A stretch of 64,000 nucleotides of DNA from the NCBI GenBank assembly GCA_013334865.1, contig JAAXWS010000007.1, forward strand, positions 1 through 64,000, written 5' to 3'. The notes under the pieces were generated by a model. The model was not told where the DNA came from and did not search any database. It worked only from the letters and a program-made list of their open reading frames with translations. Positions 41,240 to 55,599 of the stretch are shown here, piece by piece. Within the stretch, counting starts at the first letter, position 1, and every line of letters begins with the position of its first letter. Source of the DNA: Chlorobiaceae bacterium. Lineage in GTDB: Bacteria; Bacteroidota; Chlorobiia; Chlorobiales; Chlorobiaceae. Both the position numbers and the translations under genes were made by a program.

Positions 41240-43129
41240 ATGGCCAAGTGTTATCAAGGAGCACTCGGAATTCTTCTCGCCTGCCAGGTTTTTCCCGTTT
41301 CCGCAAACGCCGCCCTTCCGTCGGGGCCTGTGCCCTCGGTCCGTTACGACCGGGTACAGGGTACGGTGAGTGCGGTGCATCCCGACAGCGCCATCGTCGT
41401 GCTGAAGCTTGTCGATGGTTCGACGCAGCGGCTCAGGATCGCTTCAAACGCCTATCTCCATCCCCTCAAGGGCCTCGACGAGCGGTCGCGGCGACCAGAG
41501 CCGAAGGGGATCGAGGCGTTCGCCTCCGGCACCCGCATCGCGGCTTCCGGCCTGGTCTACGCCGACCGTCCCGAACTGGTAGCCAAGGAGGTCACCTTTT
41601 TCGACCATGCCGTCAACAAGCCGATTTTCGAAGATCCCGACTGGTGGTCGTCCCAGGCCAAAGAGCTGGCCGACTTCTGGATAAAAACGCAGTTCGGACC
41701 CGGCGACCCCGTCGATCCCACGGCCTACCGGACCAACATCACCAAGGCCGGGACGAAGCGGCCCGAATCGGTCAACCTGCAGGAGACCGACACCATCTCC
41801 CGGCTCATCTACGGCCTCAGTTCCACCTATATCCTCAACGGCAACCCGAGGGTTCTCGAAGCGGCCAGGCAGCTGGTGCGCTACCAGCGCGAGCGGTTCC
41901 GCATCGAAAGCGCCGACGGTACGCAGGTCTACTGGCTGCATGCGATGCGGGACGGGCGCCCCGTCCTTGCCTCGCTCTTCGCCGACGATGCGGGCACAAT
42001 ACCGCTCTACGAACAGATATACTGCCTCGCAGGCCTTACCCAGTACTATCGCGCCACAGGGGACACGGTCATCCTTGCCGATATCGAGAAGAGCATCCGT
42101 TTCATGGACGACCACTACTGGGACGGCACCCCGAAGGATCCGATGCAGCGGGGCTACTTCTCCCATCTCGACCCAGGGACGCTGCAGGTGGTAGAGAACG
42201 GACCCAACGGTCTCCGCAAGAACTGGAATTCGGTCGGCGACCATCTTCCGGCATACCTCGAGAACCTCTACCTCGGCACCCGCGATCCGAAACACCTCAA
42301 GCGGCTCATCGAGCTGGCCGACCTTATCGTCGAGCACTTCCCGGACAAAGGGAGCCCCTTCGTGAACGAACGCTTCGACGCCCGCTGGAATCCGGATCAT
42401 GGCTACGCCTGGCAGCAGAACCGGGGCGTGGTGGGGCACAACCTCAAGATCGCCTGGTGCCTTACCCGCCTGTACGGCCTGGCCTCCCATGACCGCTACC
42501 TGCAGACCGCCCGCAAATGCGCCGACCTGATGCAGGTCTACGGACAGGATGTCCGCCGCGGTGGCTGGTATGACGTGATCGAACGGGAGCCCGATCCGGT
42601 GACCGGCCGTTACGAGCTGGTCTGGCATGACAGGAAGGCCTGGTGGCAGCAGGAGCAGGGCATCCTGGCCTACTATGTCCTGTACGGCACCGTCCACGAC
42701 CCCGCCTACCTCGCCTCCGCCCGTGCCGGCTCCGGCTTCTACAACCTGGCGTTCCCGGACCATGACGACGGGGATGTTTTCTTCGACTGCCAGTCCGACG
42801 GCACACCCTACCTCCTTGGCGATCGAGCCGACAAGGGGAGCCATTCGAAGAGCGGCTACCACAACATGGAGCTGACCTATTTCGCGCACCTCTACACCAA
42901 CCTGCTGGTCAACCGTCGCCCGGTAGCACTCCATTTCCGGCCAGGCGCCGAAGCAGCGGGAACCCGGTTCCAGGTCCAGCCGATCGCCTTCCCGAAGGGC
43001 TCCGTCCGGCTCGCTTCGGTGAGCATCGGTGGCCGCCCTTGGCGCAATTTCGATTCTGACGGGCTCTCCGTCATGCTGCCCGACTGGAAGGTGCCCGAGC
43101 CGGTGGTTGTGACGGTCGTTCCCCGATGA
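41240..43129 (+). CDS. Secreted alpha/alpha-toroid protein, AGE (N-acylglucosamine 2-epimerase)-like
   Basis: The 629-residue protein has a signal peptide (about 1-24, ending SANA). A small beta domain (about 35-115, RVQGTVSAVHPDSAIVVLKL) comes next, then a long helical region (about 130-555) and a short beta-rich C-terminus. The helical part has paired segments such as SSTYILNGNPRVLEAARQLV, DPKHLKRLIELADLIVEHFP, GHNLKIAWCLTRLYGL, DRKAWWQQEQGILAYY and SGYHNMELTYFAHLY, the pattern of AGE-type alpha/alpha barrels that epimerise, isomerise or cleave sugars. The assignment is by pattern only; a glycoside hydrolase or lyase of the same fold is possible. It is the first gene of a ten-gene run with GlgX at the end. 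AGGAGG precedes ATG 41240. Confidence 0.6.
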   Translation: MAKCYQGALGILLACQVFPVSANAALPSGPVPSVRYDRVQGTVSAVHPDSAIVVLKLVDGSTQRLRIASNAYLHPLKGLDERSRRPEPKGIEAFASGTRIAASGLVYADRPELVAKEVTFFDHAVNKPIFEDPDWWSSQAKELADFWIKTQFGPGDPVDPTAYRTNITKAGTKRPESVNLQETDTISRLIYGLSSTYILNGNPRVLEAARQLVRYQRERFRIESADGTQVYWLHAMRDGRPVLASLFADDAGTIPLYEQIYCLAGLTQYYRATGDTVILADIEKSIRFMDDHYWDGTPKDPMQRGYFSHLDPGTLQVVENGPNGLRKNWNSVGDHLPAYLENLYLGTRDPKHLKRLIELADLIVEHFPDKGSPFVNERFDARWNPDHGYAWQQNRGVVGHNLKIAWCLTRLYGLASHDRYLQTARKCADLMQVYGQDVRRGGWYDVIEREPDPVTGRYELVWHDRKAWWQQEQGILAYYVLYGTVHDPAYLASARAGSGFYNLAFPDHDDGDVFFDCQSDGTPYLLGDRADKGSHSKSGYHNMELTYFAHLYTNLLVNRRPVALHFRPGAEAAGTRFQVQPIAFPKGSVRLASVSIGGRPWRNFDSDGLSVMLPDWKVPEPVVVTVVPR

Positions 43130-43189
43130 GCTGCCGAACGCAGCCCGAAATCAGACGGGAGCCATAGGAACACCAAACGGGAACCGAAC

Positions 43190-53472: not shown

Positions 53473-53484
53473 ACCATCACCGCC

Positions 53485-55599
53485 ATGAGTGGAAGAATCG
53501 ACCTCTATCCTACCTTCGAGATTGCCGGGTGGAAAGTGCGCCCCGGCCGTGTCAGGCCCTACGGCGCCACGGTCGTGCCCGGTGGCGTCAATTTTTCGGT
53601 TTTCTCCAGCACGGCCACCGCGTGTTCCCTGGTGCTGTTCGACAGGCAGAGCCGTGCGCTGATGAGCGAGCTCCGATTGCCTGATGCTTTCAAGATCGGA
53701 GATGTCTGGAGCATCACGATTTTCGATCTCGACCCTGAATCTTTCGAATACGGCTTCAGGATGGACGGGCCATGGGATCTGGAGACAGGACATCGCTTCG
53801 ATGTGTCCAAGGTCCTTCTCGATCCTTATGTCCGGGCCATTTCGGGCCGGGATGTCTGGGGTGTCTCGCCGGACCGGGACGATGAGTTCCCGTACCGCGG
53901 CTTCGTCATCCCCGAGGATTTCGACTGGCGCGGCGACCGTCCTCTCGAGATTCCGTCAGAGGATCTTGTCATCTATGAAATGCACGTACGGGGCTTCACC
54001 CGCCACACATCCTCCTGCGTGCCGCATCCGGGCACCTATGCGGGCGTTGTCGAAAAAATCCCCTACCTCAAGGGCCTTGGCGTCAATTGCGTCGAACTGC
54101 TGCCGGTGTTCGAGTTCGACGAGTTCGAGATGTCCGAGCCGAACCCCTTCACCGGTGACGACAAGATGAACTACTGGGGGTACAGTACCGTCGGCTTCTT
54201 CGCGCCGAAAGGGGGGTATGCGGCGACGGGCTCCATGGGTATGCAGGCGGACGAGTTCAAGAGCATGGTGCGCGCCCTGCATGCCGCCGGCATGGAGGTC
54301 ATCCTCGACGTGGTCTTCAACCACACCTGCGAAGGGGACCATCGCGGACCGACCATCTCGTTCAGGGGGCTCGACAACCAGGTCTACTACATGCTCACCC
54401 CCGAAGGGTACTACCACAACTTCAGCGGGTGCGGGAACTCGCTCAACTGCAACAACCCCGTCGTCCGTGACATGGTGCTCGAATGCCTGCGCTTCTGGGT
54501 TTCGGAATACCACATCGACGGCTTCAGGTTCGACGCCGCGGCGATCCTCGGACGCGATTTTTCGGGGGCGGTGCTCAACAACCCGCCGCTGCTCGAATCG
54601 GTGGCGCTCGACCCGATCCTCAAGAAGTGCAAGCTCATCGCAGAGGCATGGGATGCGGGTGGCCTCTATCTGCTCGGCAAATTCCCGAACTACGGCCGTT
54701 TCTCCGAATGGAACGGCAAGTTCCGCGACGACCTCCGGGATTTCCTTCGCGGTGAACCCGGTCGCACCGGCCTGGTGGCCACGCGACTTTGCGGCTCTCC
54801 CGATCTCTACGAGCCCGGCGGAAGGGGTCCCCTGGCCTCGATCAACTTCATAACCTGCCACGACGGGTTCACGCTCCGCGACCTGGTCAGCTACAACGTC
54901 AAGCACAACGAGGCGAACGCCGAGGACAACCGCGACGGCTGCGACGACAACCGCAGCTGGAACTGCGGAGTCGAAGGCGATACCACCGACCCGGAGATTG
55001 TCGCGCGTCGCCTCCGCCAGGGCAAGAACGCGCTGCTGGCGCTCATGGTTGCCAGGGGGACCCCCATGCTGCTCATGGGTGACGAGATGGGCCGTACGCA
55101 GCATGGCAATAACAACGCCTACTGCCACGACAACGAATTCAACTGGCTGGACTGGACGCTGCTCGACCGCGAGCAGGAGCTGTTCCGGTTCACCCGGATG
55201 GCCATAGCCCTCCGCAAGGCCCATCCGGCCCTGCGCCAGGCGCGCCATCCGAGGAGTGACGCGCCTGGCGCCCTGGGATTTCCGGAGGTCTCCTGGCACG
55301 GGCGGCGCCCATGGGAACCCGACTGGTCCGGGGAGTCCCGCTTCGTGGCTGCGGTTTTTGCGGCGGCTACGCCGTCCGGGGACGATGTGCTCTACTATGG
55401 GTGGAATGCCGGGCATCTGCCGGCCATGGTCGAACTGCCTCCCCTACCCGAAGGAGTCGTATGGCGCGTTTCGGTGAATACCGGATGCCCGACTCCCGAA
55501 GACGTCTTTGCGCAGGGGCAGGGGCCATCGCTCGAACCTGGCCGTCCGTTTCTTCTTGGACCGCGCTCAAGCGTCCTGCTTGAGGCGTTGCCATCATGA
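53485..55599 (+). CDS. glgX: Glycogen debranching enzyme GlgX (isoamylase type)
   Basis: The 704-residue protein has an N-terminal CBM48-like domain (about 15-150), a GH13 catalytic domain and a C-terminal beta domain. Conserved regions are [21 protein letters not shown] (nucleophile Asp near 349), IAEAWDAGG (acid/base Glu near 387) and [14 protein letters not shown] (Asp near 458). It hydrolyses alpha-1,6 branches of glycogen or limit dextrins. It is the last gene of the ten-gene run, followed by a strong terminator. Putting it beside STAS regulators and exported glucan-binding-like proteins is unusual. Confidence 0.95.

Follow-up and report, generated by a model that had tools for sequence, protein, structure and literature searches.

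A conserved ten-gene cluster in Chlorobiaceae joins a partner-switching sensor to alpha-glucan proteins and resembles the cyanobacterial icfG operon

Gene content of the cluster

We analyzed a 64,000-nucleotide stretch of DNA (hereafter the window) from a Chlorobiaceae bacterium (GenBank assembly GCA_013334865.1, contig JAAXWS010000007.1), whose genome assembly comprises 2.42 Mb in 44 contigs and is 98% complete. Ten open reading frames (ORFs), all on the + strand and separated by 0-60 bp, occupy positions 41240-55599 in the order AGE, MFS-HEAT, X25, ankyrin-VOC, STAS, DJ-1, PP2C-kinase fusion, NTF2, STAS and GlgX. The block closes with an intrinsic terminator-like hairpin of 14 pairs and a T-rich tail (55602-55632, + strand), the strongest of 16 candidates; we treat the weaker ones as noise because shuffled sequence yields 12.1 candidates on average. 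A promoter search of the + strand gave no sigma-70-like match. The ten genes would presumably be read as a single transcript. A preliminary description of this DNA had claimed ten closely spaced, co-directional genes ending in a strong terminator, among them a PP2C-kinase fusion, two STAS proteins and AGE, DJ-1, ankyrin-VOC and GlgX members, and all of this holds. Domain searches with Pfam and NCBIfam recovered AGE, MFS plus HEAT, X25, ankyrin plus VOC, two STAS, DJ-1, dCache/PDC-HAMP-SpoIIE PP2C-HATPase_c_2 and GlgX, and the start codons of the first and second STAS genes (STAS1 and STAS2) were refined to 48855 and 53140, respectively.

The regulatory core of the cluster is a membrane sensor (50202..52610; Pfam) in which PDC/Cache and HAMP domains and a SpoIIE-type PP2C phosphatase are fused to an RsbW-like kinase. 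The acidic motifs of the phosphatase (GGDFYDH, GDISGKG, YTDG and FDDITL) and the motifs of the kinase (EAVTN, EDPGPPFD and GGLGWFII) are intact in all five orthologs. Both STAS proteins carry a phospho-acceptor serine, that of STAS1 (48855..49202; PF01740, E=3e-20) in the motif ASSG and that of STAS2 (53140..53472; PF13466, E=2e-13) in the motif TSAG. The hallmarks of partner switching are thus present, namely PP2C metal-binding motifs, the N and G boxes of a GHKL kinase and the STAS serine. STAS1 is kept in the Chlorobiaceae relatives and at an Omnitrophota locus described below, and STAS2 in five of five cluster genomes.

GlgX, the glycogen-debranching enzyme at the 3' end (53485..55599), scores 682 bits against TIGR02100 (cut-off, 640.9) and is cytoplasmic, having no signal-like N-terminus. 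At the 5' end lies a 629-residue protein of the AGE family (41240..43129; PF07221), which has the sugar 2-epimerase fold and consists of a signal-like N-terminus, a beta domain, a helical toroid and a C-terminal beta domain. Its structural model matches cellobiose and glucose 2-epimerases in the PDB (E to 8e-13, probability 1.00). Both the helical toroid fold and two histidines at conserved catalytic positions place it in the AGE superfamily. These residues, H400 (GHN) and H541 (GYH), align to conserved-motif columns of the epimerase structures, and we take them to be the catalytic histidines. The glutamate of the HxxE motif is replaced by Lys403, and the reaction may therefore differ.

A second protein with a link to glucans (45492..47087) contains four starch-binding-type domains like those of X25 and SusE/SusF. 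Its model shows four beta domains, with the starch binders SusF and X25-2 of Sca5 as top PDB matches, and the repeated X25-like beta-sandwich is recognizable at moderate model confidence (mean pLDDT 61); only the fourth repeat passes the PF22058 cut-off. These results support a putative starch-binding-like protein, in agreement with the four-repeat glucan-binding-like protein of the preliminary description. As in SusE/SusF and X25 modules, an exported multi-domain protein with a glucan-binding fold is predicted; unlike SusE/SusF, it has no SusC/SusD partner in the cluster and only one of its four repeats is above the Pfam cut-off.

The carrier encoded next to the AGE gene (43190..45487) combines an MFS_1 domain with cytoplasmic-type HEAT repeats (HEAT_2). 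An earlier NTT label for it is not supported, as no NTT family appears among its Pfam and NCBIfam matches. A related MFS-HEAT protein occurs in a Runella cluster (23% identity over 511 residues, E=2e-24). The remaining members are an ankyrin-repeat protein with a VOC (glyoxalase-fold) domain (47101..48807; Pfam), which has a relative in the cluster of genome G389; a DJ-1/PfpI protein of the ThiJ_like family (49260..50186; PF17124) with an invariant Cys196 (GECYG); and an NTF2/SnoaL-like protein (52611..53138) whose SnoaL matches fall below the curated cut-off.

Five of the ten proteins have N-termini that suggest export. In five of five genomes the AGE and DJ-1 proteins are extended at the N-terminus by some 30 hydrophobic, signal-like residues. 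No such extension is found on cytoplasmic homologs, including AGE homologs from other phyla and the cytoplasmic DJ-1 proteins of related clusters, which share 49-57% identity with the DJ-1 protein of the window. The X25, NTF2-like and ankyrin-VOC proteins have signal-like N-termini too, a feature shared by the NTF2-like orthologs. Based on these sequences, all five are predicted to be exported. This exported set, together with the phosphatase-kinase fusion, looks new.

Conservation in Chlorobiaceae and relatives in other phyla

The X25 and PP2C-kinase genes occur in exactly the same five of 86 family genomes (P ~3e-8): that of the window and four other Chlorobiaceae species (G013, G016, G070 and G085), spanning two genera in all. 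Named carriers of the cluster are Chlorobiaceae metagenome-assembled genomes (MAGs). Retention of gene order in relatives, on which the preliminary description had staked its proposal, is found in G013, G070 and G085, which hold all ten genes in largely one order; in G016 the genes are spread over contigs. Since the gene set is conserved jointly in five genomes, it goes beyond chance. The ratio of nonsynonymous to synonymous substitution (dN/dS), computed against G013 and G016, lies at 0.08-0.16 in nine genes and at 0.28-0.29 in the gene for the sensor protein; purifying selection acts on each gene tested. There are small departures from the common layout. For instance, the ankyrin-VOC gene of G013 has shifted to 3' of GlgX, with two ORFs that have porin-like, signal-like N-termini lying between them (L033 7080-9884). 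G070 holds an extra gene for a predicted exported SnoaL_4 protein within the cluster on the opposite strand (L038 17555-18235), and the ankyrin-VOC gene of G085 has an apparent frameshift (L036 13598-15169) that reflects sequencing error or decay.

Within the genus the cluster occupies a single site, which most congeners leave empty. Its flanks in G013 and G016 are syntenic with those of the window, where a divergent glycosyltransferase-PurU pair lies 16.4 kb apart (19.2 kb in G013). In many congeners without the cluster (for example G001, G002, G006, G007, G008, G010, G011, G017, G018 and G020) the same pair is spaced by 0.7-4.1 kb, so the cassette was either gained at this site or lost elsewhere. 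Horizontal acquisition is probable. GC content had been considered as a sign of recent transfer and was discarded, given that the cluster (61.0%) shows no contrast with its flanks (61.5 and 63.0%).

Five other Chlorobiaceae genomes hold a second, cytoplasmic-type cluster, composed of genes for a hypothetical protein, NTF2, DJ-1, a thiamine pyrophosphate (TPP) enzyme, a second DJ-1, VOC, GlgX and an AGE-STAS fusion, whose STAS domain is confirmed by Pfam (E=4e-11). No family genome was found with two AGE copies. In an AGE tree, the window-type protein groups with Omnitrophota on a deep branch apart from the other Chlorobiaceae type, and hence Chlorobiaceae probably acquired the two cluster types independently. 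GlgX (TIGR02100, E to 1e-100) is present in 11 of the 86 family genomes, which are the ten with an AGE cluster and G077, where a 3.8-kb contig with TPP, DJ-1, VOC and GlgX genes represents a truncated cytoplasmic-type cluster. GlgX is therefore not a housekeeping gene of Chlorobiaceae, and we reject the possibility that it serves as the family's standard debranching enzyme. Its confinement to AGE-type clusters in this family appears to be new.

A scan of contigs with the PP2C-kinase protein as query found no relatives. A related locus outside the family lies on a contig of 6.9 kb in an Omnitrophota MAG from Lake Pavin, which encodes, in order, the C-terminal part of DJ-1, X25, AGE, MFS-HEAT and STAS. 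Its proteins are 44-63% identical to those of the window over the longer matches, and the N-termini of X25 and AGE are signal-like. The contig is possibly misbinned, and its AGE and MFS-HEAT genes contain apparent frameshifts (L044 2453-2504 and 5433-5493) that are sequencing errors or decay.

Related clusters are widespread. Outside the family, the AGE protein is found in two of 308 sampled genomes of the same GTDB phylum, in 43 of 298 Streptomycetaceae genomes and, by tblastn against plasmids, in 21 plasmid replicons. Most of the best of these replicons (Nostoc, Streptomyces, Deinococcus, Runella and Gemmobacter) also hold DJ-1, with protein identities to the window of 41-43% for AGE and 48-58% for DJ-1. 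AGE-STAS-GlgX clusters are present in Nostoc, Gloeothece, Streptomyces, Deinococcus, Runella and Gemmobacter replicons, and the cluster family spans Chlorobiota, Bacteroidota, Cyanobacteriota, Actinomycetota, Deinococcota and Pseudomonadota. The recurring plasmid set comprises DJ-1, a TPP enzyme, an NTF2-like protein, a GMC oxidoreductase, a second DJ-1, VOC, AGE, STAS, GlgX, STAS, an RsbW-like kinase and a SpoIIE phosphatase. Its fullest example is Streptomyces NBC_01267, with DJ-1, TPP, DJ-1, AGE, STAS, GlgX, an anti-sigma antagonist, an anti-sigma factor, SpoIIE, MinD, a maltosyltransferase and GlgB. The plasmid clusters of Streptomyces NBC_01267, Deinococcus KNUC1210, Runella rosea and Nostoc NIES-3756 have AGE, DJ-1, STAS and GlgX in common with the window and, in some cases, NTF2, VOC or MFS-HEAT. 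Unlike the window, they have AGE and DJ-1 proteins without signal-like extensions, their own TPP, GMC and second DJ-1 genes, and no X25 protein. Genome G234 carries a near-identical copy (78-100%) of the Runella rosea plasmid cluster (L071, L050). On Nostoc plasmids, leader genes of the Nif11/NHLP type for ribosomally synthesized and post-translationally modified peptides (RiPPs) lie by the DJ-1, TPP and GMC genes (L076 18146-18806; L047 1-327), and through them the wider cluster is possibly linked to a peptide product.

The icfG operon and AGE-STAS fusions

Description of the icfG gene cluster of Synechocystis dates to the 1990s. The operon slr1852-1862 encodes an AGE protein (Slr1855), a STAS protein (Slr1856) and GlgX1 (Slr1857) (PMC8670252), the last treated elsewhere as an isoamylase-type debranching enzyme (PMC4911114), followed by a second STAS protein (Slr1859), the phosphatase IcfG (Slr1860) and the kinase Slr1861 (PMC12329169). 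Slr1861 phosphorylates Slr1856 and Slr1859, and IcfG dephosphorylates Slr1856; mutants are affected in growth on glucose and at low carbon. The same source lists the sigma factors targeted by Slr1856 and Slr1859 as unknown (PMC12329169). The operon is accordingly linked to carbon and glucose metabolism (PMC8670252, PMC12329169).

Likened by published gene content, with Nostoc and Gloeothece plasmid homologs as the cyanobacterial sequences compared, the window and the icfG operon share a core of AGE, two STAS proteins, GlgX, a SpoIIE-type PP2C phosphatase and an RsbW-like kinase, with AGE, STAS and GlgX on one strand in the window. The preliminary description had not recognized the gene set as a described system, a view that is only partly right given this common core (PMC8670252, PMC12329169) and the breadth of related clusters. 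Unlike icfG, the window has its phosphatase and kinase fused in one chain with a Cache sensor, adds X25 and MFS-HEAT, and has signal-like N-termini on AGE, DJ-1, NTF2 and ankyrin-VOC. Its gene order also departs from the icfG order of AGE-STAS-GlgX-STAS followed by phosphatase and kinase, making it a variant of the wider family and not the icfG operon proper. The AGE-STAS-GlgX-STAS order is instead that of Streptomyces NBC_01267 and Deinococcus, where it continues with SpoIIE, with or without a kinase gene between, and of Runella, where it continues with the kinase. We conclude that the window holds a rearranged variant, part of it predicted to be exported, of a cluster that is known but poorly understood. 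The literature covered, which has subscription papers outside its scope and so is weak evidence of novelty, treats the AGE/GlgX/STAS cluster in Synechocystis only and nowhere names the wider cluster. A further parallel is the SypE/SypA pair of Vibrio fischeri, in which a single kinase and phosphatase protein acts on a STAS protein with an output that has no known sigma factor (PMC8256260); unlike the sensor of the window, SypE is a soluble response regulator that controls biofilm and is not accompanied by glucan enzymes.

STAS is linked to AGE in 42 of 45 sampled AGE genes: 25 are fused to a STAS domain, 11 have an adjacent STAS gene on the same strand (10 loci of AGE-STAS-GlgX layout and one more in Streptomyces) and six are window-type loci with STAS placed elsewhere in the cluster. 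The 20 unfused genes and the 25 fusions, which include C-terminal STAS-like extensions seen by alignment in Nostoc, Gloeothece and Gemmobacter, imply at least three changes of state over the AGE tree. Reading the phospho-acceptor residue from aligned motif strings, we find that the serine is retained in each of the 13 separate STAS genes from loci of AGE-STAS-GlgX layout. Of the 25 fused domains, 22 show E, R, Q, A or P at that position in place of serine or threonine; Nostoc with a threonine and Gloeothece with a serine are among the exceptions. The frequent fusion of AGE to STAS, with loss of the phospho-acceptor in most cases, appears to be new. The pattern points to a role of STAS with the enzyme; it fits STAS domains that work with the enzyme and for which the phospho-switch is dispensable, and sits uneasily with a role on sigma factors only. 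A cyclic nucleotide (cNMP)-binding, histidine-kinase-like protein is encoded near fused AGE-STAS genes on cyanobacterial plasmids (L047 24138-25610, L048 22105-23505 and L077 4349-5755), and these fusions are the ones that keep a serine or threonine at the phospho-site.

A proposed output of the partner switch

Based on these data, we lean toward the proposal that the cluster is a glucan-processing cassette under a sensor-driven partner switch that is not directed at a sigma factor, and that it represents an exported form of the icfG-type AGE-STAS-GlgX family. A ligand at the Cache domain would tip the balance between phosphatase and kinase in the one-chain membrane sensor, and this balance would set the phosphorylation of STAS1 and STAS2. 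The STAS output would then act on one of the glucan-module proteins inside the cytoplasm, with GlgX the first candidate and the HEAT domain of the carrier possibly the second. GlgX is the best candidate because AGE looks exported and because GlgX adjoins STAS or AGE-STAS in nearly all cluster types. GlgX would free maltodextrins in the cytoplasm, the MFS-HEAT carrier would move a sugar product, and the predicted exported starch-binding-like, epimerase-fold, DJ-1, VOC and NTF2-like proteins would process it in the periplasm. The STAS target, the substrate and the direction of transport are inferred here. A sensor-STAS system tied to alpha-glucan turnover had been suggested in the preliminary description, and that part is supported, as a conserved unit does join a membrane PP2C/kinase sensor, STAS proteins and alpha-glucan proteins; its undescribed status is not.

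The most serious alternative is a classical partner switch in which the kinase sequesters RpoD or an extracytoplasmic function (ECF) sigma factor and the glucan and envelope genes simply lie in or beside the regulon. The RsbW-like motifs of the kinase are intact, Slr1861 binds SigC in Synechocystis (PMC12329169) and the genome offers RpoD and three ECF factors as its sigma-70 complement. However, no sigma gene is present in the cluster, as the preliminary description had it, or in the related clusters read, and the 98% complete assembly holds no SigB/F/G-type factor, which argues against the classical output and leaves RpoD and ECF targets. The recurrent fusion of AGE to STAS with loss of the phospho-site also points away from it, and we regard a sigma output as unlikely, if a real contender. 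A second RsbW-like ATPase of 139 residues is encoded away from the cluster (L001 1486-1905; G000:C16 122893-123267, outside the window). It is decidedly improbable that the regulators are passengers of a metabolic cassette, with constitutive enzymes and a switch that controls something elsewhere, such as the envelope or motility. Such an arrangement would be in keeping with the fused-type Chlorobiaceae clusters, where the enzymes and AGE-STAS are present and neither a SpoIIE nor an RsbW-like gene was found nearby, but in window-type clusters the sensor gene and both STAS genes lie in among those for the enzymes and have been kept along with them in five of five genomes. The displaced ankyrin-VOC gene in G013 and the extra gene in G070 are what an accidental neighborhood without functional unity might produce, an explanation that we reject and consider barely credible in view of the co-occurrence statistics (P ~3e-8 and 3e-12) and conservation across two genera and the Omnitrophota MAG contig.

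Several points weigh against a glucan cassette governed by a STAS switch. AGE, which looks exported, would be out of reach for a cytoplasmic STAS protein, leaving GlgX, the HEAT domain or another cytoplasmic partner. The type II AGE splits off on a deep branch of its own, the gene order of the window is unlike that of icfG, and the likeness to the Slr proteins rests on published descriptions. By analogy with the binding of SigC by Slr1861, a sigma output is possible.

A broader idea, to which we give slightly less than even credence, is that STAS proteins throughout the cluster family regulate carbohydrate enzymes and do not act as anti-anti-sigma factors. Reversible phosphorylation would control how a complex of GlgX and the epimerase assembles or how active it is, loss of the phospho-acceptor would leave the switch frozen in the fused forms, and one Chlorobiaceae lineage would have relocated most of its enzymes to the periplasm and kept its switch inside the cell. 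The AGE-STAS fusions and the constant neighborhood of GlgX with STAS or AGE across phyla provide a concrete and testable prediction on STAS targets, which we count among the surprises of this analysis along with the wide spread of the cluster family, the fusions themselves and the exported Chlorobiaceae form. Should the STAS proteins prove to bind GlgX or the epimerase and to modulate it, a switch known from textbooks for its action on sigma factors would directly regulate metabolism at the level of glycogen breakdown, and with the exported form in Chlorobiaceae, green sulfur bacteria would have an unexpected pathway for alpha-glucans in the periplasm.

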